This document shows positions 1 to 44,357 of a DNA stretch of 44,357 nucleotides, piece by piece. Made by a program: the position numbers and the translations under genes. Within the stretch, counting starts at the first letter, position 1. Each line of letters opens with the position of its first letter. The notes under the pieces are model-generated. The model searched no databases. It saw only the letters and a list, made by a program, of their open reading frames with translations, and had not been told where the DNA came from. The stretch spans positions 1 to 44,357 of the IMG/VR virus record IMGVR_UViG_3300030060_001148; one strand, written 5' to 3'. Origin of the DNA: a virus.

Positions 1-2
1 TA

Positions 3-3000
3 ACTATATCCAACACAGATGCTTTATTAAATCTTACTTCAGGTGCAAGTAATGATAGTGTTATTAGGTTTAATCAACACACAACACAACGAGCAACCAT
101 AGGATATGATGATACTGGTGACTTATTAAAAATAAATAATAGTTCTAATTTTGGTGGAACAAATCATTTTACGATTGATACATCTGGTAATGCTACTTTT
201 TCTGGTAATACTTTAGTATCATCTAGCACTTCAGGTGATTTGGATTTTACTGTGAGGAATACTCATGGAACTGGTCGTAGTCGTATAATTGTTCAGAATA
301 ACAATGTTGATATGAATGTACTATTGATGGCAGATGATAACAATAATGTCTCAATGGTAGGTTCTTCAACTGGTGGTAGTAAATTCATTAAGTTTGTTGG
401 TGGTAATACAAATGCTTATTTTGATGGAGGAAATTTTGGTATTGGGGAAACTAATCCAAGCTACAAACTTGATGTTGTTGGTTCTCATTCTAATCCATCA
501 AGAACTGCAGCAGATACTGCAGTAGTAGGTATAAGTGCAGGTGCTAGTGGAAGTGAATTAGTTATTGGTGGAGAACAAACTGGTGGTAAAATATGGATTC
601 AAAATAGACATAAGTCTGCAAATGGATATGATTTTCCAATAGCAATTCAACCTCAAGGAGGTAATACTACTTTTGGTGGAAATGTTGGTATAGGAACTGC
701 AAGTCCTGATTCTTTATTGAGTGTTCATAGTACGACAACTCCAGAGTTAGGAATTTATTATGATTCAGGTGGTCATGCGAATGCAAGAAACTGGATGTTT
801 AGAACAAATCATAATGTATATGGTACTTTTAGGATTTCTTATAGTGATGATGTAGGTGGTGACCCAAGAGATAACGATGCTGTAACCATTGATTCATCTG
901 GAAATGTCGGAATTGGCAAAAATTCAGGTTTATCAAAAACACTTCATGTAGACTCTACTACTGGAAGTGCATCTACTCCAAATGGACTTATGCTTACCAA
1001 TACTATTCATGGAAGTGATAGTCAGATTTATATGTATGCTGAAAATGATAGCGGTACACTCAGTAGTGGTATAATTAAGTATGACCCAGATGCAATGTAT
1101 ATGTGGCTTCAAGGGTCAAGTGGTAAAGGTTTATATATTAACCATAGTGGTAATACTGTTTTTAGTGAAAATACTCATCATTTAGATAGTAAAAAATTAT
1201 TCCTTGGTAGTAGCTCAGATGCTGAATTATACAGTGATGGAAGCAATACTTATTTTAGAAATAATGTTGCGAGTCAAGATATAATTTTTAAAGTAAGAGT
1301 TAGCTCTTCCGATACTCAAGTACTCAGATTAGATGGAGCTACAGGAAATGTTGAAATTAATAAACATCTAATATTATCAAATACATTTTCTTTACAATGG
1401 GGCGATGCAAATGCAAGGATTGAAGGTTCTACTGCTAATGATTCTATTAATATTCTTACTGGAGGAACAAGTGCACTTAGTATAAACTCAAGTCAAAATG
1501 CTACTTTTTCTGGTCAATTAACATCTGACCATCATATTATACTTACATCGGCAGATGAAAAAGGTGTTAGTATACAAAATACTGCAAATGCTAGTGCTTT
1601 ACGCAGTTTAGAAATGTACATAGATGCTAGTGGTAAAGGTTGTATAAGAAAAACTAGTGCTTCTGGATTAGATAACGATTTATACATTCAGCCTAATCAT
1701 GGTGATGTTTTCTTTAAAGGCTCAGGAAAGGTTGCTATTGGCTCAGCTACAAGTCCTTCATATAAACTCGATATTACTGGTCCTGCTACAGAAAATGGTT
1801 CTACACTTAGACTTAGCGATGTAGTATCGAGTAAAAACTCAAAACATTTATTAATACAAAGGTCAAGTTCTACTGCAAGTGTAGGAATAGCAGGCTCTCA
1901 AGCTAATGACCCACTATGGATTTCAAGAAGTGGTGGTTATGATTTAATGGTTGCAAGTGCAGGAAATATTGGAATCGGAGTATCAGCTCCTACTGCTAAA
2001 TTTCATATATATGGAGGTTCTGAAAACGCCACTGGAGGTATTAGACTAACAAACGATGACACAGCTCAAACTGCTACTGGTGGAACTGCTATATTTGTAG
2101 AACAAAACACTAAAGACATTTTTATTAGAAACTATGAAGATGCAGGTTTCAGAATAAGAACTCACGATACAGATGCTATGTATATAGATGATGACCAGAA
2201 TGTGGGTATAGGAACTATAAGTCCTCTTGGAACATTACATATAAAACGTGCATCAAACGTAACAAGCCTTCCTGTATCTTCACAATTACATTTGAGTTTA
2301 GGTGGAGCAGGAACATCAAACGGATATGTTGGAATGGGATTTGGTTATGCTGGTGTAGGTACTGCATATAGACCAGCAATGATTACATACAAAATTACTC
2401 AAAATGGTGCAAATCAAGCGGGTGAATTAGGTTTTTGGACACGAAATACTACTACTGGTTCAGATGCTCCTACACAAAGAATGGTTATTACTGATGGAGG
2501 TGATGTTGGTATAGGAACTTCAAATCCTACTAACAATCTTTCAGTATATAATGATAGCTCTGCTACTTCTATTAATATTGGTAAGTATGCTTCTGGTAAA
2601 GCTGTTGCTGTATTAGGTACAAGTGCTGACACAAATGGATATTTTAGCATTCAATCATACTATGCACAAGGTAGCACATTTGGTAATATTATATTAAACT
2701 CGCAAGGTGGTAATGTTGGCATAGGAACAACAAGTCCTTCAAATCTTCTTCATGTAGAAGGAGCAAAAAGCAGTGATTGGTTAGCAAAGTTTAAAAATAC
2801 AGGAACTACGAATGCATATGGATTGCAAATAGATACAACTGCTAATACAACTGTAGGAGAGCTTTCTCTTGGGGTTTATACAGGTGCAGGGACTGGAATG
2901 TTTGTAACTAGTGATGGTAAAGTTGGTATTGGAACAACAGGCCCTGATAAAAAATTGCACGTTTATGGCTCTGATGATGTACTTGCTACTTTTGAAAGTA

Positions 3001-3623
3001 CAGATACACACGCTACTATTAGAATTGTAGATAATGATACAAGCAATAATGCTACGTTAACTAGAGTAGGAGACAATTTAGAAATAGTAAAAGATGGTGG
3101 CAATGTAAGTATTGGAAAAGACAATCCTGCACAAGCACTTGATGTTAATGGTAGTATAATATCTAGTGGTGTACTCCTTGCACCAACTTATGTAACATTT
3201 ATTCACAGTTTTTATGATGACATAGGCACTACAGCACATTATTTACCTTGGGGTAATCTTGCTGAAGGAACAGGCAATGATTCTAGTGCTACATCATTTC
3301 TTGCTCCAATGAGCATGACATTAAAAAAACTATTTGTAAGAATTGAAAGTATAACAAATATTGGTAATCACAACCTTACTGTTACGCTAATAAGCAAGGC
3401 AGATGGAGTCATAACAAATACAACAGTAGCAAGTGCTACTAAAGCTTTTGCCTCTTCAAATAGTAACAAAACTGTTACATACCTTGAATCAGATTTTAGT
3501 GCCACACCTAGGCTAACACAAAAACAATTAGGCTCATTAAAAGTTCAATTTGCAAGCGATTATGGTAGTCAAACTGATTTTTTTGTTACTAGCGTATGGC
3601 AAATGAATAACAACACACTATAG
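3..3623 (+). CDS. Tail fibre or spike protein, C-terminal part (5' end outside window)
   Basis: The reading frame is open to the left edge, so the gene is truncated; a TTG at 240 is not needed as a start. The visible 1206 residues are rich in Gly, Ser, Thr and Asn. They carry about ten spaced copies of a VGIGT-x-SP-type motif (for example NVGIGTTSP and KVGIGTTGP), each followed by a short LHV/LDV strand. Such repeats are typical of trimeric beta-structured fibre and adhesin shafts. The last ~150 residues form a different, repeat-free domain, probably beta-rich, and may be the receptor-binding tip. I do not see the S74-type chaperone domain that often ends such fibres. It is probably the 3' portion of the gene starting at 42424. 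Function inferred: host recognition. Confidence 0.8.
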   Translation, partial: TISNTDALLNLTSGASNDSVIRFNQHTTQRATIGYDDTGDLLKINNSSNFGGTNHFTIDTSGNATFSGNTLVSSSTSGDLDFTVRNTHGTGRSRIIVQNNNVDMNVLLMADDNNNVSMVGSSTGGSKFIKFVGGNTNAYFDGGNFGIGETNPSYKLDVVGSHSNPSRTAADTAVVGISAGASGSELVIGGEQTGGKIWIQNRHKSANGYDFPIAIQPQGGNTTFGGNVGIGTASPDSLLSVHSTTTPELGIYYDSGGHANARNWMFRTNHNVYGTFRISYSDDVGGDPRDNDAVTIDSSGNVGIGKNSGLSKTLHVDSTTGSASTPNGLMLTNTIHGSDSQIYMYAENDSGTLSSGIIKYDPDAMYMWLQGSSGKGLYINHSGNTVFSENTHHLDSKKLFLGSSSDAELYSDGSNTYFRNNVASQDIIFKVRVSSSDTQVLRLDGATGNVEINKHLILSNTFSLQWGDANARIEGSTANDSINILTGGTSALSINSSQNATFSGQLTSDHHIILTSADEKGVSIQNTANASALRSLEMYIDASGKGCIRKTSASGLDNDLYIQPNHGDVFFKGSGKVAIGSATSPSYKLDITGPATENGSTLRLSDVVSSKNSKHLLIQRSSSTASVGIAGSQANDPLWISRSGGYDLMVASAGNIGIGVSAPTAKFHIYGGSENATGGIRLTNDDTAQTATGGTAIFVEQNTKDIFIRNYEDAGFRIRTHDTDAMYIDDDQNVGIGTISPLGTLHIKRASNVTSLPVSSQLHLSLGGAGTSNGYVGMGFGYAGVGTAYRPAMITYKITQNGANQAGELGFWTRNTTTGSDAPTQRMVITDGGDVGIGTSNPTNNLSVYNDSSATSINIGKYASGKAVAVLGTSADTNGYFSIQSYYAQGSTFGNIILNSQGGNVGIGTTSPSNLLHVEGAKSSDWLAKFKNTGTTNAYGLQIDTTANTTVGELSLGVYTGAGTGMFVTSDGKVGIGTTGPDKKLHVYGSDDVLATFESTDTHATIRIVDNDTSNNATLTRVGDNLEIVKDGGNVSIGKDNPAQALDVNGSIISSGVLLAPTYVTFIHSFYDDIGTTAHYLPWGNLAEGTGNDSSATSFLAPMSMTLKKLFVRIESITNIGNHNLTVTLISKADGVITNTTVASATKAFASSNSNKTVTYLESDFSATPRLTQKQLGSLKVQFASDYGSQTDFFVTSVWQMNNNTL

Positions 3624-12172: not shown

Positions 12173-12613
12173 ATGGATCCAATGTTAGTACTACAATTAA
12201 TAGATAATTATAATAGAAACCCTCAAAGATATTCAGACGAAGAAGCAGAGTTAATAGCTATGCTGTCTAAACAAATGGGTGCAAGTTTCAAAAGAGAAGA
12301 TAAATCTATACGCAAAGGTTTGTTTGATCTTGTTGATACTGCTGTATTAGGTGCTATACCTAATAGTTTAAGACCACGTTCTAGAGGTGAATCTGTTTAT
12401 GGTGAAACAGGAATGGAGAGGTTTACTAGTGGTGCAGGTTCCTTACTTGGATTAGCAGGTGGTTTGATAGGTGGATATGGTGCAGCAAGAGGAATTATAG
12501 GTTCTGGTGTACCACAACGTGCAGGTAGAGGTATCATTAATTATGGAAGAAATACTATGGGTAGAATGAATCCATTTTCAGGCATAGGTAATGTAGGTAC
12601 TATTATAGGATAA
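12173..12613 (+). CDS. Small paralogue of the giant protein's N-terminal module
   Basis: 146 residues. Its first ~100 residues align with the first ~105 residues of the 2655-residue protein that follows. Shared features are a helix ending in a YNRNPQRYSDEE / YRSDPTMFTDDQ pattern, the sequence G-x-x-FKR, then an LIP/AIP...R...GE...R...G...LAG series, followed by a Gly-rich hydrophobic segment (LLGLAGGLIGGYGAARG). Both proteins are therefore likely built on one virion-targeting or membrane-inserting module. Its stop overlaps the giant gene's start (TAATGG). Confidence 0.65.
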   Translation: MDPMLVLQLIDNYNRNPQRYSDEEAELIAMLSKQMGASFKREDKSIRKGLFDLVDTAVLGAIPNSLRPRSRGESVYGETGMERFTSGAGSLLGLAGGLIGGYGAARGIIGSGVPQRAGRGIINYGRNTMGRMNPFSGIGNVGTIIG

Positions 12614-15600
12614 TGGCATCTCCTTATGAATCTTATAAAGTACGTGAGTTAGTAACAGCGTACCGATCAGATCCGACTATGTTTACAGATGATCAATTAG
12701 ATCAACTGGAAGCATTGGCTTACGATAATGGAATAAACTTTAAACGTATTAACAGTGAGTTTAATCTAAATAGAGCTGTAAGACAGGCACAGGCAGGTTT
12801 TATAGAAGGGTTTAGTACCTTTGATTTAATACCTGAATCTCCTAGAAACACAGGAGAAGCTATTTTTAGACAGCTAGGACATCTTGCAGGATTTGCACCG
12901 GGTATATTAAAAGCTCCTGTAATGGGTCTATCTAAAATAGCACAAAGAGTAACTGGAAAGAAAACACGTAACCAGTTTACTGAATCTGTCTTAGAAGGTA
13001 TTGGTGTTTTAGATAGATATGCTGCACCTATGATAGCTAGTAGAGGAGCTAAAACTGCATTTAATGCTACAATAGATAAGGTGGGTGGAAGAACGTTAGA
13101 GTTTATGAAAAGAGGTTCTTCTGGTAGAGCTATTGCAGAAGAAGCTGTTGGTTTAGGTACTGCAAGTGCCTTAAGCAATTTTTGGAAAGGTGAAGATGCT
13201 ATTATAGATGGGTTTATTGGTGGAGCAATAGCAGGTGGAGCATTTGGCACTATAGGTAATTTTGCATCTATAGGAAATCGGTTAAGTGCTGGCAGAACAC
13301 CTCAACAAATAGAAAGTGCTAATCAAGCATTACGTGGATTATTAGGTGGTGCTTTTCAAGGGTTACCTTCTACATTAAGAAATGAACCTACAGAAATGCA
13401 GATATATAATTACTTGTTAGGTGGATTCTTTGGCTACAATGCTAGACCAGCAAAGGACATAGAGGCATCAAAGTGGTTATCTAAAAATAGAAATCCGTCA
13501 GAAAGTTTTACTCCAGAAAGATCAAGTGATTGGAATGCTATTAATAAAGAAGCTAGAGACTATATTACTTATGAACATCCTATGGGATTTCAAAGATCTA
13601 ATAATGAAGCAGGTGGTAGTTCTGGCATAGCTCTTGGTTATTTAAGAAATCAAAATCCTAATCGTAATTATAGACAAGATGCTGAAACTCACTTTCAAAA
13701 AAATAAGATAAACTATACTGAAAAAGATATAAATGACTTTTACAGAAATAGAGCAACTGAAGTATATCAAGCTAATGTAGAACGAGTACAAGATTCTATA
13801 GTGCTTTCTAAAAGCATACCTAATCAAGAAATGGTAGACATGATGGACCCTGCTATTAAGCCTATTGTAGACCTGAACAACATTTCTAGAAACATCTTAA
13901 AGACAAATAAAGACTATAAAACAAATCTACAAGTTGGTGATATAATTGTTAAAACTGGTCAGTCTGTAAATAAAGATGTAAATCAATTTATTAATCAGAT
14001 AAGGCAAAACTTTACTATAAATAAAAGTATCGAAAAGAAACTAAAGAATTGGTATCACGAATCTAGTCAAGTGTTTCAACCAATGCCTTTGATGACTATT
14101 GATGGTAATAATATATCTGTAAGGCAAATAACTAAAGAAAGAATCAACAATGTAAGTATAGGTGAGAAAACTCCTGAACGTTTACCTATACAGATAATAC
14201 ATCCAGAAGGCAATATCCAAATGATGACTCATGTGATCAAGGATAATGTGCCTGTTAAAATATTTAAACAGTCTAAGAATCCTGCTGAACAGATAGAGTA
14301 TGCACTGAATAAAAAAGATTTAGGATTAATTAATTCCAAACTAGGTGAATTAGACTCGTATATATTTAGTGGAAATAAAGATAAGTTAACTGCAGTAAAA
14401 GCAAATTTTAGAGATGGTAATTACACTATAAATGAAGTATTGGATGTATTAAGTAGAGGTAATGTAAGTAGATCAGAACTTCAAAATAAGTATGATAACT
14501 ATGTTGCAAGAGAAAAAGAAATATTTGGTGACACACCTGCTACAGTAGAGTTAGCTCCAAGAAAGTTTATATCTAATATAATATATAGATTAGAACAGTC
14601 TAATTTACCATTTGAACAAGCATATAGGTTAATTGAGAAAGATAGTCCTTATGCTATTGATCCTGTAAACTTTAATAAACGCATACAGTTATTGTTGTCT
14701 AGAATGGAGCCAATGCATGTATCTAGTTTTAAGGATGTACCTTTTAGTAATGAAGGTAAGGTTCAAAGAATATTAATTGTAAAAGATCCAGAAGTACCCT
14801 TTGAAGGTGGTTCTACTATAAATAAAACTGATGGCTCTCAAATGGTGCTGCCAGAAGTGTTAAAGGCAGAAGCAGAGTTTATAGGATTAGATCCTAAAGT
14901 AACAGGTTCCAATAAGCCTGTTATTGTATTTAGAACAGAGAATGGTCTACTGGCAACTAAGTCCAATGGTCAAGAAATGTTACCTGCTATGCAAAAGTTT
15001 GCTAGAGATAATAACATACATAGAATCTTCTTTGAGTCCTCTGTGAAACTTATGGACAACAATCGTCAGTTTATTACTGATTTAAAATATAATCCTAAGA
15101 AAGGAACTTATTCTGCAGATAACATAAGAACTATTGAGGTTCCTACAGAGTCTGTGCAAATAAGTAGGAGTACTTATGAAAACTTACCTAAAGATGTAAA
15201 TGGTACAACTATAGCCTTACAAGCATATAACAATATGAATCTTGTACAAGGAGATAGAACGTTTTCAAAGTTATGGTTTGAACAGGTTATTGAGCCTTCA
15301 TTAAAAGGAACTACAAGTGCTAATGAATTAACGTCTATTAAGGATTCTAAAGAGTTTATAAAAAAGTATGATGAACTAAATATGAACATAGAACATATGC
15401 CATATGAATTCATGAAACAAAAACTCTTGAAACAAAGACCAGATGATATATCCATATTTTTAGCAGATAGAATAATGAAGGCTGAACGTGAAGGACAGCT
15501 TAATGATCCAATGTCTGAACGTATTGAATACGACAGCGATAGCAATTTTAAAGATTTACATATACAAAATAATGAAATAGCAAAAGCTGTAGCCAATACA

Positions 15601-18600
15601 TATATAGCTAGAAATACATTATCGTTTGCTAACACAAACTATCATAACACACTGCGTAAGTATTTTACTAGAAGAATTACTAATCCATTTATAGAAACAG
15701 GAATGAAAAGTTGGTTTAAAGGATTTATTGAACCAGAAGCTACACAATACATAGAGTTTGATCCGTTTAAAAGAGGTAATAGAACCATAGAAGAAGGAGA
15801 AGTATATCTTGACACAACTGCTAAACAGATGCCTGTGGTATTTGGGAACAAGAAATACAGTCTTGGCGAACTTTGGAACAAGTATACTAGGGAATACTCC
15901 GATGGACTTTCCAAAGAAGTTCTTAAACAGTATGATGATGCATTTACTTTCCTTGTTATACGTACACCTGCTGATTCAGTTAGTGGTGTGCGTGCATTAC
16001 GTTTTCGTGGATGGACAGGACAAAAAGGAGCTGGATCACTTATACATCCCAAAGACAAAGAAATGCTTGGAGGAGGAGATAATGATTCAGATAGTATGAA
16101 GATATTTCAAGGATTTAAACCTGATCTATTAGAATACTATAAAAAGAACAAAGATGAACGTGCTAGATGGAGTACAGACAAACCTTATGTAGATAGATTA
16201 AATGAATTAGTACGTAATAAAAATATATCTAAAGAACTAGGAGAAGAGTTACTAGATCCTTTTTATCTAATGTCTAGTGCACACAGAGTACATGCAGGAA
16301 GGTATTCAAGTACTGGTAAGGATGGTTTAGGATTGGGATTAGCTAACGCTAATTATATGTTAAACTACTATGATTACATTAATTCTATTGGTGGTACATA
16401 CAAATATCAGGGATTAGTCGTTAAGACTAAAGACAAATATTCTCATAGACTTGCTTTAGACTTAAAAACTATGATTGTTAATAAGTCAGCAGATGCTAGT
16501 AAAGATCCTACTAAATCTGACTATACTAAAGATCCTGATTTATTATTTGATGCTTTGTTTGAAGTATCTTATAAGGGCAAACCATTAAATAGTGTAAAAC
16601 TAAAAGGTCAAAACCCTGATCAAAATCCATATACAAAGTTTAATATGCTTATTAGTGGTAGCAATTTAGATGCAATAAAAAAGTCTATAAGACTAACCAA
16701 GCCTAATATAACAACATATGAAACTGGTGAACCTGCTGCAATAGATATATTTCAATATAAAAAGAATCTAAATGAAGTTAAGCAGCAGATGGATTCTATT
16801 AAACAAGGTCAGGTTAATCTAGATATATACAGAAAACTGCAAGAGTCATTTGGTGACTCAATAGAGTTTGGTGGTATTAATAGAGTTCAACAAGCACTAT
16901 ACAGAAAGTCTAGAGACAACTATATAAATAACCTTAGACAAGGGTATAAAGATTTTCCCAAACAGTTTTTAGTAAAGAGTAATACATCTAAGTATTTAGA
17001 AAAACACTTTGATATACTTGCTAAAGAGTTGTCGTTTGAAACAACTAGTAATCATCAAAAGAACATGGCTACTGATCCTAATAAAGCATTGGATATTTTT
17101 GGTAAAGACATAGGCCAGTATGCAACTATTGAGCTGTTGACAAAACAGTTTGGTGATATACAAAAAGCATTTTTAACTAAAGGTAAGAAGGTAAACTTAG
17201 TAGATGATGTTTATCCTAAGTTAAAAGAAGAAGCATTTGCTATAAAGGATACGTTAAAAGTAAGAGACAATAAAGTAAGTAATGATTTAGATGGTCGTAT
17301 AATGAATACGAGAAAGAAGTTATCTGATATGGAAAGGTCGAATGGATTAAAAGAGGGATTGCTTCAGGATTACTTTTCTTACTGGTTGTTAAGTCCTATA
17401 CAAAGAAATCCTTCTCCAACTTTAGTTGCTAGAACTGGTTATAGTAAAGATATACATGCTTCTAGAGCAATACCTATAGAGGTAAAGAGAAACTTTTATA
17501 AAAAATTAGATGAGATATACTTTGATGTATTAGGTGATAAACCACCGATAACAATAAAGTCTAAGAAGTTTAAAGACAGTGAGCTGTCAAATAATGTAGA
17601 AATAAATAAAGTATTAGATACCTCAGTAAATACAGGTGTATTAAAAGGATTAGCACTTACTAAAAAAGATTTAGCAGAAGTAAATGAGTTTAGTAAGTAC
17701 ATAAAAGATCATCCAATATCTAAAGAAAACTTTAATGACTGGTTTACACAAATGACGAGTCCTATTCTAGAAAGTAGAATTTTAGAAGGGCCTACTAGAG
17801 ATGCTACAACCATAACATTGAGAGATGTTAAAGCATTAAACAATTATTTTAGAGAGTTACAGACTAAGAAAGGTTTGGGTGTAGGTCTTATTGATTATTA
17901 TAGTTCTCCGATTACTACTAGTAGAAAACTAGAAGCTATGAACTTTCAAACTAAAGCCTTTAACATTAAGCAAAAGGTGTTAACAAAAGATGGATTAAAA
18001 GAAAAGAATGTACAGTATGTACTTAGTCCTATACTGTCTATAGCAAACTATATAAGAATGTCTGAGGCTGGTATTAATAAATACGAAGGTCGTAGAAAAG
18101 ATATGCGTTTTAATCTTGAGAAAGAGTTGAATGCATTGGATACCAAAAAAGAACAAGTCTATATGGACAATATTATAGAGTTTAGAGAAGGCAGAAAAAC
18201 TCTAGATCAATTAGATAAATCTATTAATAAAGAGAAGTTTATTAAGCTTAATGAAGCTGTAACTGAGTTTAATAGAAACATGTGGGAGTTTTGGGTTCCT
18301 ACAAAAGATGCTGCAGGAAAAGAATATAATTGGAACACTATAGATGTAGATAACAATTATGGTGTGGTTAATAAATATATCAGATATGATAAAAATGGCA
18401 GATTTAATCTAGAAAAATTTGAACAAGAAGTCATTATGGCTAAAAACCAAAGTGATAATATTATAAAACAAATAGGTATTGATGGTATTATGCGATATAG
18501 GTATGAATATCTATTAGAAAAGTCTATTGCTGGAAACAAAAACAAGAAAGAAGCTAGAGAAACAGCAAGAAAAGAAAGTCCATTCTATCCTAGACGTAAA

Positions 18601-20580
18601 CGTGATTACAATACATATATTCATCATAGCATACGTAATGTTCCTAAAGATATAAAAATGGAACAGGTAGAGTGGATTAATAGAAACTCAGGCAAGGTAC
18701 CTAATAGAGTTCTAAGAGAACTAACTATGGATAATGAGTTTTTTGAAATGAACGATAGAATAACTATTGATGCAGATTATAAAACTGCTTTTGAAAATTC
18801 TTCAACATCAATACCGGGTTCATTAAAAAAACGTGGCAACGATCCTATTCCATTTAAACGAGGTAGAGATTTATTTGACGATTATCAAAACTCATTAATT
18901 AAAGGTTACTTTAGAAACCTTATGAAGGTAAAAGCACAAAGTGATATAGATGCTTTGATGTCTAATATGAAAGATTATAAACCTTCAAAAAATGAAACTG
19001 CTCGTTTTAATAAAATGTATAAAGGTCAAAGTATACCAGATAAATTAAGATACAAAAATTATTTAGATGTATGGGCAGACTTTGTAAGAAACTATGCAGA
19101 GTATAGTATGGGTTATCAAACAAAGTTTAGTGATAAGATGATGACAGAACAGGGCAGAGACTTGTTGGCTTTGAATAAAAAGAACTTATTTTATACAACA
19201 TCTGATCAAGTTATTGCTAATCAATTAGAAAAACTATATCGTAGTAAACTTGGTGGTAAAGATAGTTTACCATTTGTAAACAATTTGCCTAAAGATCCTG
19301 CTGCTAGGCAGCCTTATTTATATAATTTAATTAGGAATTTAGGAGCATCTGAGGCTAAGTATCAGCTATTGTCATTACTTGCTAATACAGGGTCATTTAC
19401 TACTAATATATTTGGAGGTGGTACACTAGCAATAGGAAGTGCAGGTGTTCGTAATTTTGTTGATTCATTTAACAATAAAACACTTGAAGCTGTTCTATTA
19501 AAAAATAGTAAAGGTGAATACACTACATTTTTAAATAATGGTAAACCTGTAAAAAATAGAAAAAGCATAGATAAATGGCTTGAAGAAAACGGATTCTTTG
19601 ACAATTACATACAAAATGAATTTGAATATAGACCTGAAGTAACAGCAAGATTAAAGAATGCTGGGGTAAATATAAAGAATCTATCTAGAGATTTGGTTGT
19701 AGCATTAAAATCTAAAAGAACAGATAAACAAGAAAGTGTTAATGATGTATTTAAACGATATGGCATAAATGATATAATGCTAGAAGCAGGTGGATTTTTT
19801 ATGAAATCATCTGAACGTATTAATAGAAAGAATGCCTTTATTGCTCATGCATTACAAGCTGTAAGAGGCTTTGGAAAACAAGGTAGGGAAATGACATTGA
19901 ATGATCCTTATGTTTTTCAACAAGCTATGAAAGGTATAGAAATGACACAGTTTTTATATCAAAATGCTTTTAGACCACCATTTATGGCTACAACAACTGG
20001 TAAAGTTTTAAACAGATTTAAGTTATTTGCTTTTAACAGTGTACGAATACGTAAAGAATTTTTTAGGCAAGCTAAAATGCAAGGCTTAAAACCTAATACA
20101 GAAGAGTATAAAAGATTTCAAGATACATTTCTTATTGATATGATGATGTATGGGTTAGGTTCAGCATTTATGTTTAGTTTATTTGATACTACGTTACCAC
20201 CCCCATATGATTGGGTTCAGGCGTTAGCTGACTACACATTTGGAACAAAGCAGCAAAAAGAATTAGCATACTTTGGAGATCCTTTAGGCCCATTAAATGT
20301 TTTAAAACCACCTATTGCTAGAGTTCCTGAAGCATTTGGTGAACTAATTACTGGTAACTTTGATGATTTTACTGGATACACTATGTATACATTGTTGCCA
20401 TTTGGTAGAGGTATACGACAAGCTGTGCAATTATCTGATGACAGAGTAGGCAGAGGTCTTGAGCGTGCTCCAGAAATATTATTTAGAATACCTTACAATA
20501 AGTTTTTAAATAGACTCGAAAGAGCAAAAACAAAAAGAGAACGATTATCTTTTATAGATGAGCTACTAGAAGAGTCCTAA
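12613..20580 (+). CDS. Giant internal virion protein; candidate two-barrel (DPBB) virion RNA polymerase
   Basis: 2655 residues, the largest gene here. Residues ~1-110 repeat the module of the preceding 146-residue protein. At 1117-1162 the order is R1117-x-P, then I-H1145-P, then GGG-D1156-N-D1158-S-D1160-S-M1162-K. Multisubunit RNA polymerase largest subunits carry R-x-P, L-H-P and NADFDGDQM with nearly the same spacing, where the three Asp bind catalytic Mg. The middle Gly is Ser here. Upstream, residues 730-820 include EGGSTINKTDG (D740-G741), KPVIVFRTENG and FFESSVK (K812), which could be the lysine-bearing second barrel. The C-terminal ~200 residues hold a basic RFKLFAFNSVRIRKEF segment and a possible membrane stretch near 2510. 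Position after ejection proteins supports packaging in the virion. Gene certain; polymerase role inferred, moderate confidence. Confidence 0.7.
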   Translation: MASPYESYKVRELVTAYRSDPTMFTDDQLDQLEALAYDNGINFKRINSEFNLNRAVRQAQAGFIEGFSTFDLIPESPRNTGEAIFRQLGHLAGFAPGILKAPVMGLSKIAQRVTGKKTRNQFTESVLEGIGVLDRYAAPMIASRGAKTAFNATIDKVGGRTLEFMKRGSSGRAIAEEAVGLGTASALSNFWKGEDAIIDGFIGGAIAGGAFGTIGNFASIGNRLSAGRTPQQIESANQALRGLLGGAFQGLPSTLRNEPTEMQIYNYLLGGFFGYNARPAKDIEASKWLSKNRNPSESFTPERSSDWNAINKEARDYITYEHPMGFQRSNNEAGGSSGIALGYLRNQNPNRNYRQDAETHFQKNKINYTEKDINDFYRNRATEVYQANVERVQDSIVLSKSIPNQEMVDMMDPAIKPIVDLNNISRNILKTNKDYKTNLQVGDIIVKTGQSVNKDVNQFINQIRQNFTINKSIEKKLKNWYHESSQVFQPMPLMTIDGNNISVRQITKERINNVSIGEKTPERLPIQIIHPEGNIQMMTHVIKDNVPVKIFKQSKNPAEQIEYALNKKDLGLINSKLGELDSYIFSGNKDKLTAVKANFRDGNYTINEVLDVLSRGNVSRSELQNKYDNYVAREKEIFGDTPATVELAPRKFISNIIYRLEQSNLPFEQAYRLIEKDSPYAIDPVNFNKRIQLLLSRMEPMHVSSFKDVPFSNEGKVQRILIVKDPEVPFEGGSTINKTDGSQMVLPEVLKAEAEFIGLDPKVTGSNKPVIVFRTENGLLATKSNGQEMLPAMQKFARDNNIHRIFFESSVKLMDNNRQFITDLKYNPKKGTYSADNIRTIEVPTESVQISRSTYENLPKDVNGTTIALQAYNNMNLVQGDRTFSKLWFEQVIEPSLKGTTSANELTSIKDSKEFIKKYDELNMNIEHMPYEFMKQKLLKQRPDDISIFLADRIMKAEREGQLNDPMSERIEYDSDSNFKDLHIQNNEIAKAVANTYIARNTLSFANTNYHNTLRKYFTRRITNPFIETGMKSWFKGFIEPEATQYIEFDPFKRGNRTIEEGEVYLDTTAKQMPVVFGNKKYSLGELWNKYTREYSDGLSKEVLKQYDDAFTFLVIRTPADSVSGVRALRFRGWTGQKGAGSLIHPKDKEMLGGGDNDSDSMKIFQGFKPDLLEYYKKNKDERARWSTDKPYVDRLNELVRNKNISKELGEELLDPFYLMSSAHRVHAGRYSSTGKDGLGLGLANANYMLNYYDYINSIGGTYKYQGLVVKTKDKYSHRLALDLKTMIVNKSADASKDPTKSDYTKDPDLLFDALFEVSYKGKPLNSVKLKGQNPDQNPYTKFNMLISGSNLDAIKKSIRLTKPNITTYETGEPAAIDIFQYKKNLNEVKQQMDSIKQGQVNLDIYRKLQESFGDSIEFGGINRVQQALYRKSRDNYINNLRQGYKDFPKQFLVKSNTSKYLEKHFDILAKELSFETTSNHQKNMATDPNKALDIFGKDIGQYATIELLTKQFGDIQKAFLTKGKKVNLVDDVYPKLKEEAFAIKDTLKVRDNKVSNDLDGRIMNTRKKLSDMERSNGLKEGLLQDYFSYWLLSPIQRNPSPTLVARTGYSKDIHASRAIPIEVKRNFYKKLDEIYFDVLGDKPPITIKSKKFKDSELSNNVEINKVLDTSVNTGVLKGLALTKKDLAEVNEFSKYIKDHPISKENFNDWFTQMTSPILESRILEGPTRDATTITLRDVKALNNYFRELQTKKGLGVGLIDYYSSPITTSRKLEAMNFQTKAFNIKQKVLTKDGLKEKNVQYVLSPILSIANYIRMSEAGINKYEGRRKDMRFNLEKELNALDTKKEQVYMDNIIEFREGRKTLDQLDKSINKEKFIKLNEAVTEFNRNMWEFWVPTKDAAGKEYNWNTIDVDNNYGVVNKYIRYDKNGRFNLEKFEQEVIMAKNQSDNIIKQIGIDGIMRYRYEYLLEKSIAGNKNKKEARETARKESPFYPRRKRDYNTYIHHSIRNVPKDIKMEQVEWINRNSGKVPNRVLRELTMDNEFFEMNDRITIDADYKTAFENSSTSIPGSLKKRGNDPIPFKRGRDLFDDYQNSLIKGYFRNLMKVKAQSDIDALMSNMKDYKPSKNETARFNKMYKGQSIPDKLRYKNYLDVWADFVRNYAEYSMGYQTKFSDKMMTEQGRDLLALNKKNLFYTTSDQVIANQLEKLYRSKLGGKDSLPFVNNLPKDPAARQPYLYNLIRNLGASEAKYQLLSLLANTGSFTTNIFGGGTLAIGSAGVRNFVDSFNNKTLEAVLLKNSKGEYTTFLNNGKPVKNRKSIDKWLEENGFFDNYIQNEFEYRPEVTARLKNAGVNIKNLSRDLVVALKSKRTDKQESVNDVFKRYGINDIMLEAGGFFMKSSERINRKNAFIAHALQAVRGFGKQGREMTLNDPYVFQQAMKGIEMTQFLYQNAFRPPFMATTTGKVLNRFKLFAFNSVRIRKEFFRQAKMQGLKPNTEEYKRFQDTFLIDMMMYGLGSAFMFSLFDTTLPPPYDWVQALADYTFGTKQQKELAYFGDPLGPLNVLKPPIARVPEAFGELITGNFDDFTGYTMYTLLPFGRGIRQAVQLSDDRVGRGLERAPEILFRIPYNKFLNRLERAKTKRERLSFIDELLEES

Positions 20581-23220: not shown

Positions 23221-23258
23221 TTATAGGGGCAAAGATAAAGGAATCAGTGCCCCTATAA
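23221..23258 (-). promoter_or_regulatory. Early motif copy 1 inside a perfect 10-bp hairpin
   Basis: TTATAGGGGC (23221-23230) and GCCCCTATAA (23249-23258) are perfectly complementary and enclose the 16-base early motif (23233-23248, AGATAAAGGAATCAGT). The - strand gene at 23201 starts 32 bases further on. A TATAAA lies at the end of the hairpin in the direction of transcription, so a promoter overlapping an operator is plausible. It could also stop transcripts of the helicase gene, though no U-run follows. Confidence 0.6.
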
Positions 23259-26330: not shown

Positions 26331-26454
26331 GTATTTCCCTTTTGTTATTATTAAATCTTCTGGGATGTTCATGGTGACCGTAATATCCATGTTTACGACA
26401 AGTTGCGATCTTGCTCTGGCCTAGTCCATCCCAGTTTCTCTTATAAGTTTTCAT

Positions 26455-26470
26455 AAATAAAGGAAGCAGT
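26455..26470 (-). promoter_or_regulatory. Early motif copy 2, upstream of the ERF gene
   Basis: AAATAAAGGAAGCAGT on the + strand, 65 bases before ATG 26390 (125 before 26330). Read on the - strand it is followed after 7 bases by TTATAAG, a -10-like element. An inverted relative (CACTGCTGTCC at 26528-26538) lies 57 bases away. The 216-base gap 26331-26546 holds nothing else that I can identify. Confidence 0.5.
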
Positions 26471-30795: not shown

Positions 30796-31122
30796 GATTT
30801 ACTCCTATGTAGATTAGTAATTAGGCACAATGCCATAGATAGAGGAAGCAATAGTACTCTCAAGTACTGTAGGGATTAGTAGTATAATGCACGTAATAGA
30901 TGTAGTGTGTATGTAGTAAGGGTATACTGGGTGCATAGCACACATGGTAGGTCAACTAACTAGACGAACTCAACGTAGTAGACCCTACCAACCCTAACTA
31001 ACAGGGGGGTACAACTACAACATGTCTCTCACTCACAGTCTACAACTAGTTTTGTAGGAGTACTTGGAACTAAAAGTCTTTGCAGTAGTACAATATCTAA
31101 GTAAGTTAAAGTATTACTTAAT
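30796..31122. promoter_or_regulatory. Divergent intergenic region between early and late genes
   Basis: 327 bases with no gene on either strand. Next to the early side it holds motif copy 6. The middle has GGTAGGTC...GACCCTACC arms (30950-30991 region), a GTGC-ATA-GCAC hairpin and AGTACT-CTCA-AGTACT. Toward the late side, TTGGAA and TACAAT form a poor promoter-like pair before the 31123 gene. Likely contains start sites for both directions and could host the replication origin or packaging site; none of this is proven. Confidence 0.5.
30825..30852 (-). promoter_or_regulatory. Early motif copy 6 with adjacent hairpin
   Basis: AGATAGAGGAAGCAAT (30837-30852), 42 bases before the first early gene. 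GGCA-CAA-TGCC (30824-30834 region) sits on its downstream side, at almost the same offset as the hairpin next to copy 4. AGTACT-CTCA-AGTACT follows on the other side. The most degenerate copy (two changes at conserved positions). Confidence 0.5.
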
Positions 31123-42282: not shown

Positions 42283-42424
42283 TTTATCAATAGATGATTT
42301 AAGCATTCTTAAACAAGCATTAGAAACTATGACAATACGAGGTAAAGATGCTGTGTTTGTAGGAAAGTTATTAGAAAAAATTACAACTTGCTTTGATAAA
42401 GAATTAGCAAAGGAATCTAAGTAA
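42272..42424 (+). CDS. 50-residue paralogue, TTG start
   Basis: Starts with TTG at 42272, inside the end of the previous gene, and the stop overlaps the large fibre's ATG (TAATG at 42422-42426). The protein DLSILKQALETMTIRGKDA, then VFVGKLLEKITTCF shares the L-x2-LK-x10-G-x-D-x5-hL-x-K-hT pattern of the preceding 56-residue protein. Overlaps on both sides support expression despite the rare start codon. Confidence 0.55.
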   Translation: MKVDLSIDDLSILKQALETMTIRGKDAVFVGKLLEKITTCFDKELAKESK

Positions 42425-44357
42425 TGCCTAGTTGGAAGAAAGTAGCATTAGCTGATGTAACTAATACATTTACCTCTGACCAAATAGTTGATGGTGGAAC
42501 TACATCAAGATTAATTATAAATAGTTCTACCCATAATGCGAGTGTAGCTAATGAAGCTAGACTGCAACTTGGGTTTGGTCATTCTGGTGCACCTGATGCT
42601 GTAGGCTATGTTAAATTAACCGAAAATGCTACCAATTCATTTGATGGCACAATAACTATAGGTGTACCATATAATAATGGTTCTGGTGGTAGTGCTACAA
42701 GAGATGCACTTACTATAAGGCAAACAGGTGATACTACCTTTGCTTCTAATATAGCTCTTGCAAACAATAAATCAATAAATTTTTCAAATACAAGTGGAAC
42801 CGAAAAATCAATTCTTTCTGTAAATAATTCAAACATTACTAAACTCGGAGACAATAGTAGTAGTGGGGTTTTACAATTAAATGCAGGAGCTGCTACTTTT
42901 TCTGGTGATGTAATTGTTGGAACTGCACCTTTTTCAAGTTCAGATACAAGTTTACAGATTGGCGATTCTGGAGATACTCATTTAGTATTAGGCGAAGATG
43001 GTAACAATAATGCAAGAATGACTTGGGATGCTTCTGAAAATAGTCTTGAGTTTCATTTAGTAGATAGTAGCACATCAAGGTCTAATGTGCTTGTTCTTGA
43101 TAGCAATGGAAATGTTGGTATAGGTATATCACCAGTAACTACTATAGATGTCGCATCTTCTGTTAGTTCAGATGTTACAGTATTTCCAACATTAAGATTA
43201 ACAAATCAAACAGATACAACAGATTGGGATAATGGAGATGTTAATGGTGCATTTGAATTTTATTCTTCTGACCCAAGTGGTAATGCTCCATACGTTACAG
43301 CCTTTGTAAAGTCTATTAATGAGCAAGAAAATGGAACACTACCAAGTGGTGCTTTGTCTTTTGGAACTACTACTTATAATGCTTCTGGTGGTGCTGTTGA
43401 GACACTTAGAATTGATTCGTCAGGAAAAATTGGTATAGGTACAAGCAGTCCTTCAAGTTACCATTCGTTGGCAGATAATTTAGTTGTAGCAAGTTCAGGA
43501 GATACTGGAATTAGTATTGTATCTGGTACGACCAGTGATGGTAGGATATTTTTCGCAGATGGCACAAGTGGTGGCGATGAGTCAAGAGGTCACATCAGAT
43601 ATGACCATTCTAATAATAGTATGCATTTTGTTACCAATGATGGGGGATCTGCACTCACAATAGGTTCTGACCAATCGGCTACTTTTTCTGAAATATCTAT
43701 ATCTGGCTCAACTATATCTGATAGCAGTGCATTAACTATAAGCAGTGGTGATGATGTTATTATTGATGCTGAATCTGATGTAAATATAGATGCTAATGGT
43801 GGAGATATAAGGTTCAAAGACAATGGAACTAACTTTGTTACATTTAGTTCTTCAGCTACAACAGGAAGCGTTTTTACCAATGGCAGTAGTTCTGTTTTTA
43901 TAACACCAGATGGTCACAACTCCATTGTTAGGCTTGATAAAAGTTCAACAAGTCGTGGAGCAAGATTTGAATATTCAACAGCAGGTAGTAAAAAATGGTA
44001 TCAAGGCTTAACTGATTCTGACCATTTTAGTTCAGGTGGTGATGAGTATTTTATATCAGAAGATTTTACCACACCTCGATTTATTATAGAGCCGGGAGGT
44101 AATATAGGAATTGGTGGATTACCAGCTACTCTTTTAGATTTGCACGGAGCAAGTGGTTCTACATTAAGACTTACATCTGCTAATACAAACATAACTGGTG
44201 CTGAACTTGTTGGAAAACTTGAAGCATATATATCTGATGCAAGTGGAAACTTACCGGGTGTAGCTGGTTCTATTGATTGGACAACAAGTGGCTCAATAGA
44301 TGGTGGCTCATCAAAAGGCACAACTTTAACTTTTAAAAACTATCTTGAATCTGCTGG
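42424..44357 (+). CDS. Large tail fibre or spike, N-terminal part (3' end outside window)
   Basis: The frame is open to the last base, giving 644 residues plus two bases. N-terminus MPSWKKVALADV is shared with the short fibre at 41207 and is probably the attachment part. The body shows repeated beta-helical-like units (LQIGDSGDTHLVLGED, NVGIGISPVTT, KIGIGTSSPSS, NIGIGGLPATL). The same repeats fill the truncated gene at the window's left end. If these are one gene, a direct end-to-end join is out of frame: (2 + n + 2) must be a multiple of three, so n = 3k+2 bases are missing. Confidence 0.8.
   Translation, partial: MPSWKKVALADVTNTFTSDQIVDGGTTSRLIINSSTHNASVANEARLQLGFGHSGAPDAVGYVKLTENATNSFDGTITIGVPYNNGSGGSATRDALTIRQTGDTTFASNIALANNKSINFSNTSGTEKSILSVNNSNITKLGDNSSSGVLQLNAGAATFSGDVIVGTAPFSSSDTSLQIGDSGDTHLVLGEDGNNNARMTWDASENSLEFHLVDSSTSRSNVLVLDSNGNVGIGISPVTTIDVASSVSSDVTVFPTLRLTNQTDTTDWDNGDVNGAFEFYSSDPSGNAPYVTAFVKSINEQENGTLPSGALSFGTTTYNASGGAVETLRIDSSGKIGIGTSSPSSYHSLADNLVVASSGDTGISIVSGTTSDGRIFFADGTSGGDESRGHIRYDHSNNSMHFVTNDGGSALTIGSDQSATFSEISISGSTISDSSALTISSGDDVIIDAESDVNIDANGGDIRFKDNGTNFVTFSSSATTGSVFTNGSSSVFITPDGHNSIVRLDKSSTSRGARFEYSTAGSKKWYQGLTDSDHFSSGGDEYFISEDFTTPRFIIEPGGNIGIGGLPATLLDLHGASGSTLRLTSANTNITGAELVGKLEAYISDASGNLPGVAGSIDWTTSGSIDGGSSKGTTLTFKNYLESA

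Follow-up and report, generated by a model that had tools for sequence, protein, structure and literature searches.

The 44,357-nt viral contig IMGVR_UViG_3300030060_001148 of IMG/VR (the window, meaning the whole stretch analysed) encodes a giant protein whose core is almost certainly homologous to the virion RNA polymerases (RNAPs) of crAss-like phages and shares their fold. We consider it quite likely that the protein holds a single-chain, two-barrel DNA-dependent RNAP, homologous to the crAss virion enzyme, which is carried in the virion and transcribes early genes. Family-wide invariance, the predicted fold and a profile comparison agree, which is the basis of the crAss-type assignment. 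A first-pass annotation of the window had noticed R-x-P, I-H-P and D-x-D-x-D at 15958-16100 and had likened them to the largest subunit of cellular RNAPs. Translation of 12613-20580 places R1117 (codon at 15961) to D1160 within that interval, and the residues around the motif read FTFLVIRTPADSVSGVRALRFRGWTGQKGAGSLIHPKDKEMLGGGDNDSDSMKIFQGF. H1145-P1146 lies between R-x-P and the triad (I1144-H-P1146, later G-G-G-D1156-N-D1158-S-D1160-S-M1162-K). When the protein was shuffled 20,000 times, 44% of the shuffles contained some DxDxD, 1.8% had R-x-P 30-45 residues ahead of DxDxD, and none (0 in 20,000) reproduced the full R-x-P...HP...DxDxDxM pattern. Taken alone, the motif would be suggestive, a good lead and no proof; family conservation decides.

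The window protein had no match in the PDB (phmmer), Pfam, PHROGs or the INPHARED phage records (tblastn), and a scan with the polymerase core alone returned near-identical copies only. Distant relatives were reached via the portal protein, for which IMG/VR contains at least 114 relatives, and then via an alignment of the motif region. The giant protein was present in 15 of the 35 searched portal-relative records, many of which are fragments. Among the most diverged records, the protein was readily detectable in just three parts, namely both termini and an island around the motif (residues 1059-1266). The persistence of this island places the motif region among the slowest-evolving parts. Scanning one public virus collection with the island alignment, a search confined to a narrow motif, yielded 132 encoding loci; 80 of these were retained. 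The family consists of relatives from uncultured marine podoviruses, and its complete members are open reading frames (ORFs) of mostly 2,500-3,400 aa.

Conservation was assessed in two alignments. In the 98-protein alignment, R1117, P1119, G1125, R1127, G1154, D1156, D1158 and D1160 were identical in all covering sequences (97/97), as were K768, K783 and K812 (94/94) and D1294 (96/96). The second alignment (63 rows, 15% mean column identity) retained about 15 invariant columns: K689, D740, K768, K783, K812, one Leu, R1117, P1119, G1125, R1127, G1154, D1156, D1158, D1160 and D1294. This set fits a two-barrel active site, in which one barrel contributes lysines, and its partner R-x-P and the Asp triad. 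K768, K783 and K812 would be the catalytic lysines of the partner barrel.

These data refine the first-pass annotation. It had named loss of the Asp residues in homologues as a possible refutation; all three are invariant. The Met that it reported alongside them is present in the window protein and is no family trait, the residue after the third Asp being mostly V or I. The Ser that it reported at the central Gly position is likewise correct for the window protein, while across the family this position varies (S, G, A, I). A diverged clade carries the canonical form, M-R-V-P-S-P-A-V-S-G-T-R ... P-K-D-H-F-Y-x-D-G-A-D-V-D-G-D-K-V. I-H-P does not belong to the signature, since H1145 is His in just 48 of the 98 aligned proteins; the 'HP' resemblance to cellular RNAPs appears coincidental or lineage-specific. 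A descendant with changed activity, as suggested there, is unlikely given the strict conservation of every catalytic position.

AlphaFold2 modelling of residues 560-1420 (63-row alignment as input, templates off) gave a mean predicted local distance difference test (pLDDT) value of 90.9 and a predicted template modelling (pTM) score of 0.90. The top Foldseek match in the PDB was 6vr4_A, the virion RNAP of phi14:2 (E 5.5e-10, probability 1.00). The next fold matches were QDE-1 (E 1.7e-6, probability 1.00), maize RDR2 and the AR9 non-virion RNAP; cellular beta' subunits also matched, with weak scores. The first-pass annotation had also named a confident model lacking double-psi barrels as a possible refutation; the model is confident, and its best solved match is a crAss-like virion RNAP. 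In BFVD, a collection of predicted viral structures, the best matches were UniProt A0A516L... entries and crAss-like phage proteins; the former suggest that this or a near family was deposited earlier without annotation. In the model, a 37-residue helix (1222-1258) follows the triad where the bridge helix is expected, and it is a candidate for that element.

The profile comparison proposed in the first-pass annotation supported the assignment for both RNAP halves. We gathered and aligned 13 crAss-like RNAPs and compared them with the family using hhalign and 60 column-shuffled controls. The A half (640-900) matched the crAss A half with P 4.5e-8 and a score of 61.7 (shuffled maximum 15.6), and the B half matched the crAss B half with P 3.2e-4 and a score of 37.0 (shuffled maximum 16.1). 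Pairing each half with the opposite crAss half gave no match. The B-half alignment puts R-x-P and all three Asp in register with the crAss RNAPs, and K768, K783 and K812 align with K residues of phi14:2 gp66 (6VR4). P23-45 gp96 and gp64 were tried as profile relatives and rejected, having no significant profile similarity.

The best fold match, gp66, is a single chain of similar size, and the distance from R to the first Asp is 39 residues in both proteins. The motif order is also shared, NKR/TDG/K...K/SAVK being followed by a (V/A)DxxKDP-type motif. The gp66 motifs Y-K-N-M-V-D-F-F-K-R, T-D-A, L-K-Y-S, D-G-V-K-V-G and V-D-N-A-K-D-P have the invariant family counterparts N-K-R, T-D-G, K, S-x-x-K and A-D-x-S-x-D-P. 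The triad reads D-N-D-S-D in the window protein and DFDID in gp66, which also lacks the central Gly. Sequence identity is about 9-13%, and the fused N- and C-terminal regions differ. Moreover, the window phage has one giant protein, whereas phi14:2 has a block of several giant RNAP-associated proteins, and phages of the window kind have genomes of about 44-50 kb as compared with about 100 kb for phi14:2.

The motif, its conservation, the predicted fold and the homology are established by these results. From the sequence, the core would very likely be catalytically active, and a role in the virion is likely. In the mechanism that we propose, residues about 560-1330 would form a single-polypeptide RNAP with two double-psi beta-barrels (DPBBs), one providing K768/K783/K812 and the other R-x-P and the D-x-D-x-D metal triad. 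The N- and C-terminal parts of the giant protein would probably serve packaging and ejection. The Gly/Ala-rich N-terminal region is a possible ejection or membrane part; the C-terminal helical region (1880-2655), for which the model was moderate (pLDDT 71) and no PDB structure matched, is a candidate for packaging or ejection. The polymerase would probably ride in the particle within the giant, partly unfolding cargo protein. It would then pass the tail, enter the cell together with the DNA or before it, refold, and transcribe the early genes with no need for the host RNAP. This route is modelled on crAss, P23-45 and N4 phages (PMC10172136, PMC10770324, PMC10136315).

Several points weigh against this picture. 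With 6vr4 the overall TM-score is a moderate 0.47 (by query length), and the sequence-only searches of the PDB, Pfam and PHROGs gave no match; a sequence-profile search of the PDB was also negative. That the barrels have the expected topology and that Lys and Asp come together in one site is predicted from the Foldseek match and the alignment. We infer the virion location, injection, catalysis and early-gene role for a family known from the sequences of uncultured viruses, and the protein might be a late product with a function outside early transcription.

The strongest rival is an ordinary intracellular non-virion RNAP for middle or late genes, like P23-45 gp64 or the AR9 enzyme. The Foldseek match to AR9 and a family known through sequence alone are compatible with it. 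However, fusion to a giant protein is typical of the virion RNAPs of crAss-like, N4-related and P23-45 phages (PMC10770324), and no other candidate for early transcription was seen in the genome, in a search with a weak control; a T7-type RNAP was not found in 13 family genomes, where the positive control of the search gave no signal. We regard the non-virion enzyme as improbable. A two-barrel fold that has lost its catalytic activity or been repurposed, and persists in a structural role or as an ejection protein that guides DNA, might be read from the huge fusion and from the Ser, Ala or Ile that replaces the central Gly in many members, but active gp66 lacks this Gly as well, and the metal-ligand Asp, R-x-P and barrel-A Lys residues are invariant across about 95 diverged sequences, leaving it very improbable. 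A chance motif in an unrelated ejection protein, to which the frequency of DxDxD alone in shuffles of so long a protein would lend some colour, is ruled out by the family-wide invariance, the confident fold and the profile matches, and its probability is negligible.

Other known systems resemble the proposed enzyme in part. P23-45 gp96 has a two-barrel RNAP core in a giant virion protein; unlike in the podovirus-like window phage, that core is clamp-less and N-terminal in the tape measure of a long tail. QDE-1 and RDR2 share the single-chain two-barrel fold, a likeness that is structural only, and differ in being cellular eukaryotic enzymes of RNA silencing. The giant RNAP in the podovirus virion of N4 is a functional analogue only, as it belongs to the T7-like right-hand family and is no homologue of the two-barrel enzymes.

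By its head genes the window phage is not assignable to Crassvirales, because its portal (phrog_156), TerL (phrog_38) and capsid (phrog_1328) differ from those of phi14:2 (phrog_6547, phrog_6681 and phrog_11589, respectively). The two portals gave no BLASTP match. The description of the phage as unrelated-looking therefore holds for the head module. Both phages have a PHROG 221 metallophosphoesterase in the podoviral gene module. The window (44.4 kb) and the longest plausible relatives (45-51 kb), all of them contigs that may be incomplete, lie outside the range of roughly 85-105 kb in the crAss-like records compared for Crassvirales.

Upstream of early genes lies a conserved element, ACTGCTTCCTTWATCT, frequently accompanied by a hairpin. 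The window contains five copies of ACTGCTTCCTTWATCTNTGGC on the minus strand, the early-gene strand, between 23228 and 30852. A position weight matrix (PWM) trained only on G008, G012 and G016, with the window held out, recovered exactly these five sites at a score threshold of 20 and found 0 in 100 Markov-shuffled copies. The element is also present in G001, G003, G008, G012, G016 and G017, mostly in intergenic positions, and a start codon often lies 20-60 nt downstream of it. A short G+C-containing hairpin (GGCA/TGCC, GGCT/AGCC or GAGCA/TGCTC) follows the element at about 8 of the 22 distinct sites, and the mean hairpin score was reached in 1 of 300 shuffles. The hairpin after ACTGCTTCCTTWATCTNTGGC covaries across sites. 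The element is absent from the diverged clade (G026-G035), G024 and G031, where no equivalent motif was found. In a blind de novo motif search of single genomes, it was not separable from noise; mostly ribosome-binding sites were recovered, and the element was a top motif in G016 only, within the null range.

The element could be the promoter of the virion polymerase. It is also a candidate for a nut-like site acting with the host RNAP, having some resemblance to a boxA-like box followed by a boxB-like hairpin. That an abundant small marine podovirus lineage outside Crassvirales injects a single-chain two-barrel RNAP recognising its own ACTGCTTCCTTWATCT(N)TGGC promoters is a tentative and rather doubtful proposal. 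If true, it would bring sigma-free, sequence-specific and possibly hairpin-aided, N4-like initiation into the two-barrel superfamily. With the conserved upstream element at hand, promoter recognition can be tested directly.

We found no annotation or paper naming members of the family as RNAPs in a literature search that covered few subscription journals. Family members had been sequenced before, the giant protein being unannotated. Two-barrel virion RNAPs have so far been described in crAss-like and jumbo phages and in a few phages of Thermus. The present family adds a large and diverse set in small marine podoviruses, missed completely by standard annotation, and suggests that ocean viruses commonly transcribe their early genes independently of the host. 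Its deep, well-sampled alignment bears on the question, raised in PMC10770324, of whether the single-chain two-barrel RNAPs arose by simplification of cellular enzymes or are relics of ancient ones.

Table 1. Coordinates of the giant protein gene, its parts, the early-gene element sites and two loci with an inserted domain (window positions unless a locus is named).
Feature	Position	Strand	Evidence or remark
Giant protein gene, polymerase core inside	12613..20580	+	2655 aa (relatives 2600-3200 aa); closes structural/tail module
N-terminal conserved region, residues 1-300, Gly/Ala-rich, hydrophobic	12613..13512	+	Conservation profile; detectable even in most diverged members
Predicted single-chain two-barrel RNAP core, residues 560-1330	14290..16602	+	AlphaFold2 pLDDT 90.9; Foldseek 6vr4_A E 5.5e-10
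DPBB-A-side half, residues 640-900	14530..15312	+	Invariant K689, D740, K768, K783, K812; hhalign to crAss A half
DPBB-B-side half, residues 1040-1330	15730..16602	+	hhalign to crAss B half, where both R-x-P and DxDxD line up
R1117-T-P1119	15961..15969	+	R and P each 97/97
D1156-N-D1158-S-D1160, candidate Mg2+ triad (putative catalytic role)	16078..16092	+	Each Asp 97/97; aligns with DFDID of phi14:2 gp66
Long helix, residues 1222-1258 (model 663-699), bridge-helix candidate	16276..16386	+	DSSP of model
A-D1294-A-S-K-D-P, counterpart of gp66 V-D-N-A-K-D-P	16489..16509	+	D in 96/96 covering sequences; aligned in global profile alignment
C-terminal helical region, residues 1880-2655	18250..20577	+	Strongly conserved family-wide; model pLDDT 71
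Element ACTGATTCCTTTATCTTTGCC	23228..23248	-	Held-out PWM 24.5
Element ACTGCTTCCTTTATTTATGAA, upstream of Erf gene	26450..26470	-	Held-out PWM 26.6
Element ACTGTTTCCTTAATCTCTGCT, ~26 nt ahead of start codon	29116..29136	-	Held-out PWM 24.2
Element ACTGCTTCCTTAATCTTTGGC with hairpin TTGGCA-ACTC-TGCCAA, ~41 nt ahead of start codon	29759..29779	-	Held-out PWM 28.3
Element ATTGCTTCCTCTATCTATGGC with hairpin GGCA-TTG-TGCC	30832..30852	-	Held-out PWM 23.8
Loci with AlkB-like insertion in polymerase region	L121:2564-6241; L125:2057-5734

The giant gene directly follows a run of tail-region genes; ahead of it lie small structural-type genes, an M15-type peptidase, the PHROG 221 metallophosphoesterase and an 854-aa protein. 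This placement, and the PHROG 221 gene common to the modules of both phages, speak for the proposed virion polymerase. Some relatives carry insertions in the polymerase region. An AlkB-like 2OG-Fe(II) oxygenase domain (PF13532, best E 6e-26) is inserted just after DxDxD in two members; it may represent a mobile insertion, or else a repair domain that is carried in. L121 and L123 have a DUF4326-like insertion ahead of R-x-P. The 88,986-base contig G015 (L121, L122) encodes two giant RNAP proteins of different clades and two portals, and it would be a chimeric assembly or two joined genomes. The 57-kb contig G031 (L132-L134) encodes a related portal, and no giant polymerase protein was detected on it; this lineage possibly lost or replaced it.

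As for the host, the single-cell assembly AG-436-M02 of Prochlorococcus includes one family member (L162 / L215) on a contig of 46,061 bases, and another relative lies in a Flavobacteriaceae metagenome-assembled genome. Both may be co-sorted or mis-binned viruses and serve as host clues only. The window itself ends inside repetitive fibre-type genes with VGIGTSSP-like repeats (1-3623 and 42424-44357), with a long frame open at the left end and a 644-aa ORF open at the right, which suggests that the genome is circularly permuted and was cut within a fibre gene.
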